Origin: Propionibacteriaceae bacterium
Lineage (GTDB): Bacteria > Actinomycetota > Actinomycetes > Propionibacteriales > Propionibacteriaceae
Assembly: GCA_020438595.1 (NCBI GenBank)
Contig: JAGQUI010000168.1
Span: 1-6,181 of the forward strand
DNA length: 6,181 nt
Reading direction: 5' to 3'
A model generated the notes under the pieces. That model did no database searches. It was not told where the DNA came from and worked only from the letters and a program-made list of their open reading frames with translations. This document shows positions 429 to 6,181 of this stretch, piece after piece. Every line of letters begins with the position of its first letter. Position 1 is the stretch's first letter. Position numbers and translations under genes: made by a program.

Positions 429-522
429 AGGGTGTGGTCGAAGCCACCCCTGAGGGAGCACCGTGTACGGGGAACACCCGGCGGGGCCGCAACCTCCGCC
501 GTTCCCGCCTGCTCCACGACTG

Positions 523-530
523 GGAAGGGA
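523..530 (+). promoter_or_regulatory. ribosome binding site that decides the SulP start
   Basis: GGAAGGGA ends 7 bases before ATG 538. An alternative site, GAGGGAG (452-458), sits 4 bases before an in-frame GTG at 463. The 25 codons between the two starts encode a proline-rich stretch, and about 8 of 25 end in A or T, against about 2 of the first 30 codons after ATG 538. That change in codon use at 538 favours the ATG. Confidence 0.55.
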
Positions 531-537
531 CGGCAAC

Positions 538-2217
538 ATGGCCACCTCGGTTCCGAAGCCGACCTGGCGGGACGTGTCCTCGGGCCTGGTGACCGGGCTG
601 TTCTCGATCCCGGAGGGAATGGCGTACGCGTCGATCGGCGGCTTCGCCGCGCCGCTGGGACTGTGGTCCGGGGTGGTCCCGACCATCCTCGGGTCGGTGT
701 TCGCGCGGACGGTGCTGATGGTGACCACGCTGACCTCCGCGATCGCGCTGACCTCGCAGAGCGTGCTCGCGTCGGCGGGGCTCGACAGCGGCGACGTCGG
801 CGCGATCGCGACCCTCACCGTGCTGACCGGTGTGGTGATGCTGGCGATGGGGCTGCTCCGGCTGGGCTCGGTGATGGCCTACGTGTCGGCCGCGGTGATG
901 ACGGGCTTCACCACGGGGATCGCCGTGCAGATCGTGGCCGGGGTGGTGAAGGACGCCACCGCCTACTCGCCGGCGTCCTCGAACACGGTGGGCAAGCTGG
1001 TCGGCGCGGTGCTGCACATCGGCGAGTGGGACCTCACCACCACCCTGGTGGCGGTCGCCACGGTGGCGGTGTGGTTCGTGGTGCGCCTGGTCCGCGCGCT
1101 GCGTCCGTTCGCGACCCTGATCGCGCTGCTCGCCGTCACCGTCGTGGCCGCGGCCGCAGCCCTGCAGGTCGAACTCGTCGGCGACATCGCGCCGATCCCC
1201 CGTTCGCTGCCGCCGCTCACCCTGCCGGACCTCTCCGCCCTGCCGGCACTGGCCACCGGGGCCGTCGCGGTGGCGCTGGTCGCCCTCGCCCAGGCGGCCG
1301 GGATCAGCTCGGCGGTGGCGAATCCGGACGGCTCACGCAGCGACGCGTCGGTCGACTTCAGCGCGCAGGGTGCGGCGAACATCGTCGGCGGCTTCTTCGG
1401 CGCCCTGCCGACCGGCGGCTCGATGTCCCGCACGGGCGTCGCGACCAGCGCGGGTTCGCAGACCCGGTGGGCGGGCATCTTCGCCGGGCTCTGGCTGATG
1501 GTGATCGTCCTGGCCGTGGGCCCGCTGGCCGGCCTGATCCCGATGCCGGTGATCGGCGGGCTGATGATCGTGATCGGTGGGGAGCTCGTCGTCGGACGCC
1601 TGGCCGACATCCGGCTGGTGCTGCGGACGTCGCCTGCCTCGAGCGCCGCCATGGTCGTCACCTTCGTCGCCACCACGGCACTGCCGCTGCAGCAGGCGAT
1701 CTTCATCGGCGCCGCGCTGTCGATCCTGCTCGCCGCGGTGCAGGGCACCGGGGCCGGACGCCTCGTGGAGCTGGTCCGGCGCGGGGAGGCCGCCTGGAGC
1801 CTCGCCGACGCCCCCACAACGCTGCCGTCGCACGCCACGACGGTGCTGCACTACGCCGGCATCGGGTTCTTCTCGGAGGTGAACCACCTCGACCAGGAGT
1901 GGCCGGACACGGCCGGGGCGACCGACGCCGCGCTGGTGATCTCCACGCGCGGCTCGCTGGCGATCCCGTCCGCGACCTTCCTGCGGATGCTCGACCGCAA
2001 GGCCGACGAGATGCGCCAGCAGGGCCTCGCGCTGGTCGTCTGCGGGGTGCCCACCCGGCTGCACGACCTGCTCCGGCGCACCGGCTCCCTGCAGCGCTTC
2101 GGGGAGGACAACGTGATCCCGGAGACCGACCAGTTGATGGAGTCGGTCGAACGGGCCTGGGAACGTGCGGAGGCACTCCGCGCGCAACAGCGAGAGGACG
2201 GAGCCGGAGATGTCTGA
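538..2217 (+). CDS. SulP-family anion permease with C-terminal STAS-like domain
   Basis: This 559-residue protein is of usual SulP (SLC26-like) length. It is an inner-membrane transporter; family substrates include sulfate, bicarbonate and other anions, and the sequence does not tell which. The N-terminus carries the SulP signature SIPEGMAYASIGG (about residues 23-35), followed by many hydrophobic helices to about residue 410. The motif GALPTGGSMSRT at 288-299 corresponds to the conserved G-(M/L)-P-x-x-G-x-x-S-R-T segment of the transport core. Residues ~433-545 form a STAS-like cytoplasmic domain, with LAIPSATFLRML and ALVVCGVPTRLHDLLRRTG resembling the helix and strand order of STAS. ATG 538 was chosen over GTG 463 (adds 25 residues) because of its better ribosome binding site and codon use. 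The stop overlaps the MFS start by 8 bases, so the two probably form an operon. The serA-like gene upstream would fit a cysteine-synthesis link if the substrate were sulfate, but this is inference. Confidence 0.88.
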   Translation: MATSVPKPTWRDVSSGLVTGLFSIPEGMAYASIGGFAAPLGLWSGVVPTILGSVFARTVLMVTTLTSAIALTSQSVLASAGLDSGDVGAIATLTVLTGVVMLAMGLLRLGSVMAYVSAAVMTGFTTGIAVQIVAGVVKDATAYSPASSNTVGKLVGAVLHIGEWDLTTTLVAVATVAVWFVVRLVRALRPFATLIALLAVTVVAAAAALQVELVGDIAPIPRSLPPLTLPDLSALPALATGAVAVALVALAQAAGISSAVANPDGSRSDASVDFSAQGAANIVGGFFGALPTGGSMSRTGVATSAGSQTRWAGIFAGLWLMVIVLAVGPLAGLIPMPVIGGLMIVIGGELVVGRLADIRLVLRTSPASSAAMVVTFVATTALPLQQAIFIGAALSILLAAVQGTGAGRLVELVRRGEAAWSLADAPTTLPSHATTVLHYAGIGFFSEVNHLDQEWPDTAGATDAALVISTRGSLAIPSATFLRMLDRKADEMRQQGLALVVCGVPTRLHDLLRRTGSLQRFGEDNVIPETDQLMESVERAWERAEALRAQQREDGAGDV

Positions 2218-3784
2218 CGCCCCAGCGAAGGGGGGTACCGCGAGCCGGGCACCGGAGCACGCCGGGGTGGTGCTCGGCACCCTGATCCTGGTCGCGGGCG
2301 TGGCGAACCTGAACCTGACCGTGGCGAACGTCGCCCTGCCCGCCATCGGCTCGGCGCTGTCGGCGTCCCAGCTGAACCTGAACCTGATAGCCGTGGGCTA
2401 CTCGCTCGGCCTGGCCGCTTCGGTGCTGTGGTTCGGGGCGCTCGGCGACCGGTACGGCCGCAAGCGGATGATCGTGATCGGGATGTCCCTGGCCATGCCC
2501 GCCTCGCTGGTGGCAGGCATCGCGCCCTCGACTGAGGTGCTGATCGCGGCCCGGGTCGTCGGTGGCCTCGGGGCCGGCCTTACCTTCCCGACCACGCTCG
2601 CCCTGATCACGGTGTTGTGGGCGGGGCCGGCGCGGACCCGGGCCATCGCGCTGTGGTCGGCGCTGGGCACCGGCTCGGCGGTGCTCGGCCCGCTGGTGTC
2701 CGGGGCGCTGCTCCAGGTCTTCGCGTGGGGCTCGGTGTTCCTGGTCACCATCCCGCTGGCGTTGCTGGGCCTGGTCCTGGCCGTGCGGTTCGTGCCCTCG
2801 GGCCTGGCCGAGAGCGAGACGCCGGTGGACAACTACGGCGGGCTGCTGTCCGCCCTCATGGTCGGCGCCCTCGTGGTCGCGCTGAACATCGTGGCGGCAC
2901 CCAACCTGCAGGTGCTCGCGCTGGTCCTGATCGGGGTCGCGGTCGTGATCGCGGTGCTGTTCGTGCTCCGGCAGCGCCGGGCCCCGAACCCGCTGTACGA
3001 CCTGGACGTCGCGCGGCGGCCCACGTTCTGGGTGGCCGCGGTCGCCGGGATCATCATCTTCGGCGCGCTGATGGGCGTGCTGTTCATCAACCAGCAGTAC
3101 CTGCAGAACGTGCTCGGGTACAGCTCGCTCGCCGCGGGGGCGGCGATCCTGCCCGCGGTGGTCCTGATGGTGCTGGTCGCCCCGATGTCGGCCCGCCTCG
3201 TGGCCGCGTGGGGATCACGGCGGACGCTGCTCACCGGCCAGTCGATCCTCGGCCTGTCGTTCGTGGCGATGCTGCTGCTGTGGGGCGAGGACACCCCGTA
3301 CGTGGTCGTCGTCATCCCGCTGCTGCTGATGGGGCTCGGGATCGGCCTGGCCCAGACCCCGTCCGCCAACTCGCTGACCAGTTCGGTGCCGCTGCGCCGG
3401 GCGGGCATGGCGTCCGGGACGGCCGACCTCCAGCGTGACCTCGGCGGGGCCGTGATGACCTCGATCTTCGGCGCGTTGCTCACCGCCGGCTACGCCTCGG
3501 CGATGGCGGCCGCGGGCGCCGCGTCCGGGCAGGACATCACCGCCGAGACCCAGAACCAGCTGCAGATGTCGTACGCGGGCGCCGCCCAGATCGCGGCGGC
3601 GCACCCCCAGTACGCCGACCAGATCATCGCCGCCGCGCGCGACTCGTTCCTGCACGGCGATCGCCTCGCCTACGCCGCCGGCCTCGTGGCCGTGCTCCTC
3701 GGCCTCACGCTGGTCCGGTTCTTCTACCCGGACAAGGAGACCGAGCAGAGGCTGCACGCGGACTGGGCCGCCGCGGAGGAGTGA
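2210..3784 (+). CDS. MFS transporter, DHA2 (14-helix drug:H+ antiporter) family
   Basis: This 524-residue inner-membrane protein has the length and helix pattern of DHA2 exporters, which use the proton gradient to expel drugs, dyes or metabolites; its own substrate cannot be predicted. Visible motifs are motif A, LGDRYGRKRM (78-87), in the loop between helices 2 and 3; RVVGGLGAGLTFPTTLALI starting at R115 in helix 4; and the antiporter motif C, GTGSAVLGPLVSG (153-165), in helix 5. A long polar loop (roughly 445-485, rich in Ala and Gln) precedes the last helix, as is usual in this family. ATG 2210 is preceded by GGAG (2200-2203) at 6 bases; the frame is open further upstream, but that part lies over SulP coding sequence and has no good start. 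The ATG lies inside the last codons of the SulP gene, implying translational coupling. There is no recognisable regulator next to it, so control by a local TetR/MarR-type repressor is not seen here. Confidence 0.9.
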   Translation: MSDAPAKGGTASRAPEHAGVVLGTLILVAGVANLNLTVANVALPAIGSALSASQLNLNLIAVGYSLGLAASVLWFGALGDRYGRKRMIVIGMSLAMPASLVAGIAPSTEVLIAARVVGGLGAGLTFPTTLALITVLWAGPARTRAIALWSALGTGSAVLGPLVSGALLQVFAWGSVFLVTIPLALLGLVLAVRFVPSGLAESETPVDNYGGLLSALMVGALVVALNIVAAPNLQVLALVLIGVAVVIAVLFVLRQRRAPNPLYDLDVARRPTFWVAAVAGIIIFGALMGVLFINQQYLQNVLGYSSLAAGAAILPAVVLMVLVAPMSARLVAAWGSRRTLLTGQSILGLSFVAMLLLWGEDTPYVVVVIPLLLMGLGIGLAQTPSANSLTSSVPLRRAGMASGTADLQRDLGGAVMTSIFGALLTAGYASAMAAAGAASGQDITAETQNQLQMSYAGAAQIAAAHPQYADQIIAAARDSFLHGDRLAYAAGLVAVLLGLTLVRFFYPDKETEQRLHADWAAAEE

Positions 3785-3937
3785 CCGCGCCCGCGCGACG
3801 GCGTGGCAACGTCACCGGCGACGCGCCCATTCCGTCGATCCCGCAGCCCGCAGCCCGAGAACAACCTCGGCGAAGTCAGCGAAGCCTCCCCACCCGAGGC
3901 CACATGGTCACGCCGGTCGTACACCCCGACGGAGTCG
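3785..3937. other. non-coding stretch between the MFS gene and the Rhs remnant
   Basis: No convincing gene is seen here. Apart from the hairpin right after the MFS stop, it holds a short GCAGCCC tandem (two copies, within 3842-3856) and a 5-bp stem CCGAG/CTCGG (3855-3859 with 3866-3870). Short open frames on both strands show no recognisable protein and mixed codon use. It may be decayed sequence from the same event that destroyed the Rhs gene. Confidence 0.5.
3793..3826 (+). terminator. imperfect GC hairpin just after the MFS gene, possible terminator
   Basis: GCGCGACGGCG (3793-3803) can pair with CGGCGACGCGC (3816-3826), giving an 11-bp stem with two mismatches, eight bases after the MFS stop. 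There is no T-run. It is the best candidate end for the SulP-MFS transcript, but in DNA this GC-rich such stems also occur by chance. Confidence 0.3.
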
Positions 3938-4378
3938 TCACTGCCCGAACTTGGCGAGGTTCGACGCCCTGGCCTGGCCGCCAACCTCAATGAGGGTGCC
4001 GTCGCGCAGGACCACATCAATGTCGGTAGGGCCGAAGGAGGTCGTCACGAGCGCCGCGTTTCCCCTACGTCGCCGCCGAACCGGGCAACCACGCGTCCGG
4101 CGAGGACGCCCTTGATGGGAGGCGGCTTGGGCGTGGCCCACCAGCAGGAGAAGCTGTGGGTGTCCAGGCCGCACCCGTCTCGAAGGCGCCACCGGCCGCG
4201 GGCACCACCCCGACACCACTCACGGCGAGCACTTGAGGAACCTCACCCGTGGTGTCATACCCATACGTGGTGTCACCGACCCGGTCCGCGACCCCGCCGA
4301 GGTCTGGTTCCCGCCCGCGTCCCAGCCGTAACTGGTGCCGTCGGGGGAACTCACCAGCCGGTTCGCCGCGTCAGAGCC
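3938..4378 (-). pseudogene. decayed C-terminal part of an Rhs/YD-repeat (polymorphic toxin-like) protein, frameshifted
   Basis: Pieces of one protein read in order on the minus strand but in different frames. Frame 1 (4378-4292) gives DAANRLVSSPDGTSY, then GWDAGGNQTSAG, a good YD-repeat of the Rhs type. Frame 2 (4277 to ~4150) resumes with TTYGYDTTGEV, another YD-like motif, then AVSGVGVVPAAGGAFETG. Frame 3 gives HSFS (4158-4147) and IKGVLAGRVVARFGG (4116-4072), faintly like the start of a HINT autoprotease domain. Back in frame 1, 4060-3941 gives NAALVTTSFGPTD and TDIDVVLRDGTLIEVGG, then NLAKFGQ and a stop at 3940-3938; this resembles the C-terminal toxin tails of actinobacterial Rhs proteins. 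At least three frame changes, no start and no room for a full HINT domain show it is broken. Rhs proteins are large secreted or surface toxins with variable C-terminal effectors; no immunity gene is seen. The YD-repeat part is well supported; the HINT and toxin assignments are tentative. Confidence 0.62.
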
Positions 4379-4487
4379 GCACCGCACCGTCGAACAGCTC
4401 TGTGGGCCCCTTCGCGGACCACAACTGAGACCAGAGGCAGGAAATCGCTCCTGCGCTGGCTGATTGGCGTTTCCCCTTGTCAACTCG
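4379..4487. other. spacer between Rhs remnant and tRNA fragment
   Basis: No gene is recognised here. The minus-strand frame of the YD-repeat stays open through it but shows no further Rhs motif. The stretch contains the inverted repeat annotated at 4437-4454 and the sequence directly downstream of the tRNA 3' end, where the bases after the discriminator are CGA, not CCA. Confidence 0.45.
4437..4454. repeat. perfect 6-bp inverted repeat 34 bases beyond the tRNA-Ser 3' end
   Basis: GCAGGA (4437-4442) and TCCTGC (4449-4454) flank the 6-base loop AATCGC. It lies downstream of the minus-strand tRNA fragment, where it could be the old tRNA terminator. No strong T-run follows on either strand. A recombinase arm site is another possibility that the sequence does not settle. 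Confidence 0.35.
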
Positions 4488-4539
4488 CGGAGGATACGAG
4501 ACTCGAACTCATGAGGGCGTGTCCCAACCCGCTTTCCAA
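4488..4539 (-). tRNA. 3' half of tRNA-Ser(GGA), 5' half missing; candidate att site
   Basis: Read on the minus strand, 4539-4533 is an anticodon loop TTGGAAA with anticodon GGA (4537-4535), followed by the 3' anticodon stem GCGGG (4532-4528). A long class II variable arm follows, with stem GGG (4525-4523)/CCC (4517-4515), then a complete T arm ATGAG-TTCGAGT-CTCGT (4512-4496), the acceptor 3' strand ATCCTCC (4495-4489) and discriminator G (4488). The long variable arm and GGA anticodon identify serine. The 5' side fails: the bases before the loop (CCCAG) restore only three of five anticodon-stem pairs, and no D arm or GGAGGAT acceptor strand is present in the next 60 bases. The gene is therefore not functional. 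A fragment that starts at the anticodon loop and runs to the 3' end is what tyrosine-recombinase elements leave at the far end after integrating into a tRNA gene. Confidence 0.8.
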
Positions 4540-4546
4540 CTGGGCG

Positions 4547-4556
4547 GACGATCGTC
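4547..4556. promoter_or_regulatory. 10-bp palindrome upstream of the P-type ATPase gene
   Basis: GACGATCGTC is a perfect 10-bp palindrome located 18-27 bases before a TAGACT hexamer (4574-4579) that could act as a -10 element. It therefore lies over the expected -35 region and could be an operator. The -35 match itself is poor. Evidence is positional only. Confidence 0.25.
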
Positions 4557-4573
4557 GTCGGGGGCTGCGGCCC

Positions 4574-4592
4574 TAGACTCGGATCACCCGAG
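4574..4592 (+). promoter_or_regulatory. possible -10 hexamer and small inverted repeat in the ATPase leader
   Basis: TAGACT (4574-4579) fits the TANNNT actinobacterial -10 pattern and would place transcription start near 4586, giving a leader of about 20 bases. CTCGG (4578-4582) and CCGAG (4588-4592) form a 15-base inverted repeat with loop ATCAC overlapping that start point, a place where a metal-responsive repressor could bind. Both are inferred from sequence pattern only. Confidence 0.3.
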
Positions 4593-4596
4593 ACCT

Positions 4597-4601
4597 GGGA
4601 G
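4597..4601 (+). promoter_or_regulatory. ribosome binding site for the TTG-started ATPase
   Basis: GGGAG ends 5 bases before TTG 4607. The reading frame has a stop (TAG 4574-4576) just upstream. There is no ATG or GTG between that stop and the conserved N-terminal domain, so TTG is the only common start codon that keeps the domain whole. Confidence 0.7.
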
Positions 4602-4606
4602 CGACC

Positions 4607-6181
4607 TTGAGCGTCGACACAAACGAAGCCCCTGCTACACGCCCCACGACGCCGTGGTGGACGCTTTCGCCTGAGGACGCTGCGGCACAGCTCGACGCTG
4701 GGCTCGACGGCCTCACAGCCTCGGACGCCGCGCAACGGCTCGAGACGTATGGCCCCAACCAGCTCACCGCGACGAAGTCGGCCACCTTCGCCCAGCTCGC
4801 GATCAAGCAGGTGCTGGACCCGATGAACCTCATGCTCATCGCCGTAGCGGTCATCTCGGCCGTCATCGGTCAGGTCTCGACCGCGATTCTCGTGGCGCTG
4901 CTCGTGGTCTTCAATGTGTGGTCCGGAGCGGCGCAGGAGAAGAAGGCGCAGGCGAGCGTCGACGCGCTGGCGACGATGCAGGTGCCGAACGTGAGGGTGC
5001 GGCGCGACGGAGCCATCGTGCAGGTGCCGGCTCCCGAGGTCGTGCCAGGAGACATCATCGAGCTGGAGGCCGGCGACATCGTGCCGGCCGACGCCCGCAT
5101 CGTTCGTGCCACCAACCTCGAGACTCAGGAGGCCGCACTGACGGGGGAGAGCGCGCCCATCGAGAAGACGGCCGACGCCTTGCCCGACGCCGACACGGGA
5201 CTCGGCGACCGGCGCTCGATGCTCTACCAGAACACGTCAGTGACGCGAGGCACGACGACTGCCCTGGTGGTGGCGACCGGCATGACGACCGAGATGGGCG
5301 CCATCGCGACGATGCTCGCGGACGTGGAGCGCGTCAAGTCGCCGCTTCAGAAGGAGCTGGGGTCTCTCACGAACATCATCGGCGCCGTCGCGTGGGGCGC
5401 GGTGGTCGTCATCATCGGTATCGGCCTGACGCGCGGTCAGTCCTTCGCCGACCTCATGTTCCTGGGTACGGCTGTCGCGATCTCGGCGATCCCGACGGGC
5501 CTGCCGACGTTCGTCCAGCAGATGCTGTCCTGGGGCGCCAACCAGTTGACCGCCGCGAAGGCGGTGATCGCGTCGCTCAACGACGTGGAGACTCTCGGCG
5601 CGACCAGCGCGATCTGCTCGGACAAGACGGGCACGCTCACGATGAACGAGATGACAGTGCGCTCCATCTGGGTGGGTGGTCGCACGTTCACCGTCGACGG
5701 CGCCGGGTATTCGTTCGAGGGCGTGGTGCGCACGTCCGACGGCGAGCCGATCGATCCGCCACCCGCGCTCGCCTACGCTCTCGCGCTGCCCAACGATGCG
5801 ACCGTGAGCGCCGACGGCGTGGTCGTCGGGGATCCCACGGAGGCGGCCTTCGTGGTGCTGGCGCAGAAGCTCGGCGCCGATGTTGACGAGACGAAGCGGC
5901 GCTTCCCGCGCGCCGCCGAGGTGCCGTTCGACTCGGACTACAAGTTCATGGCGACGTTCCACTACGTGGAGTGGCAGGGAGCGACGCGCCTCGCCGCCGT
6001 CGTCAAGGGGGCGCCCGACGTGCTGCTGAAGCGCTCGTCGCAGGCCGTGGTGCGTCGACAGGAGTTCGCGCCGATCGCCGAGTACGTCGACGGTATCGCT
6101 GAGGAGATCGACTACCGCTCGTCCCAGGGACTGCGCACGCTCGCGCTCGCGCTGCGGCTGTTCGAGCCCGCCGACGAGGAG
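4607..6181 (+). CDS. P-type cation-transporting ATPase (P2-like), N-terminal 525 residues, partial
   Basis: The frame runs from TTG 4607 off the window end; full family members are near 900 residues, so the hinge, the rest of the P domain and helices M5-M10 lie outside. Order seen: cation-ATPase N-terminal domain (about 17-60, with WWTLSPEDAAAQL and YGPNQL); M1 (~75-88) and M2 (~91-107); actuator domain with dephosphorylation motif TGES (179-182); M3 (~257-275); M4 (~285-305); phosphorylation motif DKTGTLT (339-345, aspartyl-phosphate at D339); then the nucleotide-binding domain with DPTEAA (409-414), FDSDYKFM (441-448, K446 likely contacting ATP) and KGAPD (467-471). Such pumps use ATP to move Ca2+, Mg2+, Na+ or other cations across the inner membrane. 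The M4 ion site reads I-P-T-G-L-P (295-300), with Thr297 where SERCA-like Ca2+ pumps have Glu, so the ion is uncertain. No CPC/CPH motif is present in M4, which argues against a P1B heavy-metal pump. About 9 of its first 30 codons end in A or T, more than in the MFS (4) or SulP (2) genes, a hint of separate origin. Confidence 0.9.
   Translation, partial: MSVDTNEAPATRPTTPWWTLSPEDAAAQLDAGLDGLTASDAAQRLETYGPNQLTATKSATFAQLAIKQVLDPMNLMLIAVAVISAVIGQVSTAILVALLVVFNVWSGAAQEKKAQASVDALATMQVPNVRVRRDGAIVQVPAPEVVPGDIIELEAGDIVPADARIVRATNLETQEAALTGESAPIEKTADALPDADTGLGDRRSMLYQNTSVTRGTTTALVVATGMTTEMGAIATMLADVERVKSPLQKELGSLTNIIGAVAWGAVVVIIGIGLTRGQSFADLMFLGTAVAISAIPTGLPTFVQQMLSWGANQLTAAKAVIASLNDVETLGATSAICSDKTGTLTMNEMTVRSIWVGGRTFTVDGAGYSFEGVVRTSDGEPIDPPPALAYALALPNDATVSADGVVVGDPTEAAFVVLAQKLGADVDETKRRFPRAAEVPFDSDYKFMATFHYVEWQGATRLAAVVKGAPDVLLKRSSQAVVRRQEFAPIAEYVDGIAEEIDYRSSQGLRTLALALRLFEPADEE

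Follow-up and report, generated by a model that had tools for sequence, protein, structure and literature searches.

The half tRNA gene and its surroundings

Why does the 3' half of a tRNA gene lie on its own beside a truncated gene for a cation-transporting ATPase? The DNA that we analysed, here called the window, is 6,181 bases long, apparently makes up a whole contig of 6181 bases, and ends inside the ATPase gene (Table 1). The original prediction held that 52 bases of it are an orphan 3' half of tRNA-Ser(GGA), a likely attachment site at the edge of an integrated element that would extend to the right and include the ATPase. We conclude, with a probability of about two in three, that they represent half of a tRNA-Ser(GGA) attachment site, probably an old one. 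The most likely reading is that an element was at one time integrated into this actinobacterial genome and that the half lies at one of its ends; the place of the ATPase is a separate question, to which we return below.

The minus strand at 4539-4488 reads TTGGAAAGCGGGTTGGGACACGCCCTCATGAGTTCGAGTCTCGTATCCTCCG. These 52 bases run from the start of the anticodon loop, at its first base, to the discriminator base, and align at 92.7% identity over 55 columns with the intact tRNA-Ser(GGA) gene of locus L059 (genome G887), the best intact match in our searches. The differences lie in the variable arm (TT to A), at one T-stem base and at one T-loop base. The half had a local-alignment score of 86, whereas the rest of the window scored 21 and 60 triplet-shuffled versions of the window reached at most 30. 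Both the alignment and the score bear out the call of an orphan 3' half of tRNA-Ser(GGA) at this position; the list of parts present (anticodon loop to acceptor 3' strand) and absent (D arm, 5' acceptor strand) was correct, and the two irregularities noted, a T-G pair in the T stem and a G as the sixth base of the T loop, were confirmed. The 5' half is absent, by eye, from the bases on the anticodon side. The piece is an end fragment of a tRNA gene, from anticodon loop to discriminator, and not an internal piece. CCA is not encoded, GCGAG standing in its place, and L059 likewise has GCGGA there. No Pfam match lies over 4488-4539 in the two frames scanned (3785-4576 on the plus strand and 4220-4735 on the minus strand).

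As expected of a half gene, ARAGORN predicted no tRNA in the window, and hence no intact tRNA-Ser(GGA), and an Rfam scan of the window up to E = 1 gave no tRNA match. Folding of the half gene was no better than that of shuffles (z = 0.58), as expected of half a cloverleaf. An Rfam v-snoRNA match in the window (22 bits against a cut-off of 75) was set aside as chance. Exact searches with the fragment DNA gave no match in a genome-contig collection or a viral-contig collection, and matches in phage records, which covered only 26 bases of tRNA-Ala genes, were rejected as shared T-arm sequence.

Table 1. Features of the window, in order of position.
Feature	Position	Strand	Basis or remark
SulP-family anion transporter	463..2217	+	overlaps MFS gene start
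DHA2/EmrB-type MFS efflux transporter	2210..3784	+	protein family match
Weak RHS-repeat piece, apparent broken-gene remains	4223..4420	-	RHS_repeat E 0.00094, 20 bits against a cut-off of 22; on the 3' (acceptor) side of the tRNA half
Orphan 3' half of tRNA-Ser(GGA)	4488..4539	-	anticodon loop from base 1, anticodon-stem 3' strand, variable arm, T arm, 3' acceptor strand, discriminator; no D arm, no 5' acceptor strand
CAG directly 5' of the tRNA part, not tRNA sequence	4540..4542	-	flank listing of 16 orphans and 10 intact genes
Spacer, tRNA half to promoter-like motif	4543..4570	.	reading of sequence
Promoter-like CCCTAGACTCGG	4571..4582	+	contains 10-mer CCTAGACTCG, starting 35 bases before ATPase start
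Calcium-type P-type cation ATPase, N-terminal 525 aa, cut by contig end	4607..6181	+	best named relatives Demequina

Orphan tRNA-Ser halves across the class

With the fragment as blastn query, 109 of 345 genomes gave a match; the genomes searched belong to the class of G004 (Tersicoccus), which we take to be the Actinomycetia. No more than two candidates were scored per genome, so that copy numbers in this survey are minimum values. We examined each of the 13 two-match genomes, and also those one-match genomes whose locus was among the 30 best. Orphan 3' halves were found in at least 12 of the 109 matching genomes (345 searched), which makes tRNA-Ser(GGA) a recurrent anticodon-loop target in this class. 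Twelve of the 13 two-match genomes carry them, the thirteenth (G693) having two intact genes instead.

Within the fetched stretches, ARAGORN found an intact tRNA-Ser(GGA) gene in 10 of the 12 orphan-bearing genomes and none in G920 and G823. Wherever both copies were present, the intact gene was on the same strand as the orphan and upstream of it (10/10). A PF00589 match above cut-off lay between them in six of the ten (G731, G838, G945, G679, G845 and G942), in five of these roughly 0.16-0.83 kb from the intact gene, and G815 had a match below cut-off between its copies. The Pfam scan listed no integrase between the copies of G752, G780 and G696, which are 1.8-3.5 kb apart. Shorter orphans of 31-47 bases, starting further in, occur in three of the 12 genomes (G815, G780, G696), and the third copy in G920 is also of this type.

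Orphans can also stand in series. The G920 stretch (L101) has three tRNA-Ser halves in a row and G942 (L110, L111) has two downstream of its intact gene; these series suggest that insertions occurred in tandem or one after another at a single site.

The six genomes with an integrase match above cut-off share the break and the orientation rule with the window, and in them both ends and the integrase are visible. In five of them (G731, G838, G945, G679, G942) the two copies are identical or nearly so, unlike the window's half and L059. The sixth, G845, has an orphan that differs from its own intact gene by four bases, a divergence about equal to that between the window's half and L059, while its integrase stretch is still present; wear of the kind seen in the window's half is thus compatible with a resident element. 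As a kind, the reading as an integration scar is well supported by these homologous loci.

An event of this kind would begin with an element whose attP carries the 3' half of tRNA-Ser(GGA). Through a crossover in the anticodon loop, a tyrosine integrase would recombine this attP with the host tRNA-Ser(GGA) gene. At the end nearest the integrase, the half brought in by the element would make the gene whole again, and the 3' half that originally belonged to the host would be displaced to the far end, where, now functionless, it would have gathered changes in the variable arm and T arm. By this rule the order in the sense of the tRNA would be intact gene, element, displaced 3' half and host, an order obeyed in all ten genomes with both copies in view. 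In the window the tRNA sense runs from right to left, which would put the element on the right and the host on the left. We infer that such an integration took place here long ago and that the ATPase side holds, or once held, the body of the element. The fragment then predicts where an intact tRNA-Ser(GGA) gene and an integrase gene should be located in the parent genome.

Where the tRNA sequence breaks off

One anticodon-side pattern, run over 18 fetched stretches, gave 26 places. Ten are intact genes; the other 16 count as orphans, defined by the absence of GGAGGATTCGC within the 45 bases before the place. Thirteen of the 16 orphans start at TTGGA, the base at which the window's half starts, and three start one base later, at TGGA; given that the pattern requires TGGA, it lists no shorter orphans, which do exist. 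The break in the window lies in the anticodon loop, which is a known crossover subsite, and at the base common to those 13 listed orphans.

The bases directly before the start also recur. AG stands there in 8/16 orphans and in none of the 10 intact genes, and CAG in 5/16 orphans, among them those of G731 and G845, and in the window. All 10 intact genes have CGC at this place, which belongs to the anticodon stem. Several of the orphans come from related genomes and two plasmids have an identical flank, so that these counts are not counts of independent events. The frequent AG or CAG flank may help to find attP sites.

Is the ATPase gene part of the element?

The supposed element side begins, about 30 bases from the fragment, with the promoter-like motif of a gene that looks chromosomal. 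Among the 120 best matches listed, the ATPase relatives P0122-P0158 are 68-80% identical and all 11 rows that name an organism are Demequina, with the next row at 59%. We fetched 13 ATPase loci from what we call the Demequina group (G258, G032, G107, G353, G335, G079, G135 and the like) and displayed eight, with ORFs called mechanically. In five of the eight, the ATPase lies between one set of gene families, and in the remaining three the gene order differs or extra genes are present. In this group, the ATPase is a chromosomal gene. Searching a viral-contig collection with the ATPase query gave no relative.

The promoter-like motif points the same way. Its 10-mer CCTAGACTCG stands 22-33 bases before the expected ATPase start in 5/13 Demequina-group loci and is absent there in 8/13; seven occurrences were found in these loci in all, the other two lying about 2.8 kb downstream. 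Alignment of the ATPase upstream regions exceeded the shuffle maximum in just 2/13 loci, so that the promoter case rests on the positioned 10-mer. The likeness of the window's promoter region to the Demequina-group ATPase loci is suggestive. The spacer before the motif contains a perfect palindrome, GACGATCGTC, at 4547-4556.

The fragment itself does not derive from the Demequina-group type of tRNA-Ser(GGA): in 12 of 14 Demequina-group genomes the gene could be read, and its T stem is different from that of the window's half. A blastn search of these 14 genomes with 4440-4606 gave no match, a result obtained without a positive control and uninformative by itself. That the T arm is unlike the 12 genes read fits the suggestion that the half is old or foreign. 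One might imagine that an integrase family targeting tRNA-Ser(GGA) at the anticodon loop moved a Demequina-group chromosomal calcium-type P-type ATPase with its promoter, as end cargo, into another actinobacterial lineage, a scenario that we consider quite improbable.

Given a chromosomal ATPase and a similar promoter motif so near the fragment, a later rearrangement or a chimeric contig is possible, and the ATPase is not established as part of the element. The geometry proposed by the original prediction, with the element to the right of the half, agrees with our own. As for the attachment site and element edge, the half gene, its break, the integrase-bearing relatives and the plasmid pCM32 (see below) speak for them, and the chromosomal look of the ATPase-side gene speaks against.

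The rearrangement would leave the half as a true old attachment half whose element has gone or moved, a deletion or recombination having brought a chromosomal ATPase that was never cargo to within about 30 bases. The shared gene families around the ATPase in five of the eight displayed Demequina-group loci and the similar promoter motif favour this course of events, as do the orphan halves with little element and no integrase listed in G752, G780 and G696. However, the flank on the anticodon side is still CAG, as in 5/16 other orphans, and given this retained flank at least the last bases of the element side seem to have been kept. We regard such a history as unlikely, though it fares better than the alternatives that follow.

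The left side and the integrity of the contig

To the left of the half gene, the SulP and DHA2-type efflux genes (463-3784) overlap by 8 bases and may form one operon. The best named relatives of the SulP protein are Demequina (73%); among 249 genomes searched in the class of G001, none had a match to it at E <= 1e-100. The MFS protein has close relatives at 94, 90 and 85% identity, followed, among others, by a Thermoleophilia MAG at 71%. It was tried as a host marker and dropped, with matches at E <= 1e-60 in 53/394 genomes of the class of G004 (best 60-61%); its identity in L001 and L002, 67%, is above the best of that class.

Positions 1-342 encode the C-terminal end of a phosphoglycerate-dehydrogenase-like ACT (serA-like) protein that has no close relative in the actinobacterial samples searched. 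Relatives were found in 1/47 genomes of the family of G258, in 17/296 genomes of the class of G004 (best-scoring 33% identity) and in 10/119 genomes of a phylum sample (best 45%, with 38-45% in four genomes). Identifying the host by serA and tRNA together was also given up: in the class of the best serA genome (G1033), 0/27 genomes matched the tRNA half, in a search that had no positive control. Between the MFS gene and the tRNA half, 3938-4420 on the minus strand holds the apparent remains of a broken RHS-repeat protein; the pieces 4068-4370 and 3941-4219 had no Pfam match, and their RHS likeness is by eye only.

Could the assembler have joined two genomes near 4540-4570, with the half gene on the left piece and Demequina-group chromosome on the right? 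GC content falls at about 4200, from 0.70-0.76 on the left to 0.64-0.71 on the right, though the fall thus sets in about 250 bases before the fragment is reached. The family sample around G258 almost lacks the serA-like gene, which is also weak in the class of G004. Moreover, SulP and MFS each have a 100% relative, presumably on one contig of 7801 bases, and no second near-identical ATPase is among the matches listed. Against a misjoin, the left-hand SulP is also Demequina-related by its best named relatives, and a join within shared tRNA sequence should break inside conserved sequence rather than in the anticodon loop. The codon-usage distance between left and right is within the normal spread as well, with 21-24% of 575 within-locus gene pairs differing as much under a coding filter; codon usage had been considered as a sign of two origins and was dropped, the left-right difference being unremarkable after that filter. 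We think a chimeric contig very unlikely.

Finally, a tRNA-Ser gene that had lost its 5' half by plain deletion, with no integrase involved, would leave a lone half of identical appearance, but the break at the base of 13/16 listed orphans and the AG flank of 8/16 make such a pseudogene highly improbable.

Comparison with known elements

Having weighed these alternatives, we keep to the fragment as most likely one half of a probably old tRNA-Ser(GGA) attachment site, and compare it with described systems. In the Islander scheme, a tDNA island consists of a tDNA and a displaced fragment, and 2083 islands with anticodon-centred sites are counted (PMC4383910). The criteria of Islander include an end fragment (3' or 5') that does not overlap a conserved protein domain and breaks at a known crossover subsite, a cognate intact tRNA on the same replicon, in the same orientation, on the correct side and at 2-200 kb, and an integrase in the interval (PMC4383910). 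The window resembles the Islander islands in its 3' tDNA fragment and anticodon-centred site (PMC4383910), with just one of the two ends visible. It holds an ordinary scar of a known kind, without a new mechanism.

An actinomycete integrative and conjugative element (AICE) carries an FtsK/SpoIIIE-type transfer protein, a replication protein and an integrase (PMC3218068). Our scan of six proteins encoded in the window found none of these, but very little of the supposed element is in view: its part in the window is 1.6 kb and nearly all ATPase.

Five plasmid records match the half at E <= 0.001. Three Streptomyces plasmids carry orphan halves, and a decayed half is present on a plasmid of Streptomyces sp. 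NBC_01717. The fifth record is pCM32 of Saccharopolyspora endophytica (NZ_KM260754.1), presumably an actinomycete integrative and conjugative element, a circle of 14.6 kb whose half lies 103 bp from the end of a site-specific integrase gene. Like the window, pCM32 has a tRNA-Ser 3' half that runs from TTGGA on and lacks an encoded CCA; the two halves are 80% identical over 53 bases, with differences in the stems of the anticodon and T arms. While the window offers one end of a supposed element, the pCM32 record is circular and complete, carries genes for an integrase and a primase/polymerase among others, and places such a half beside an integrase gene.
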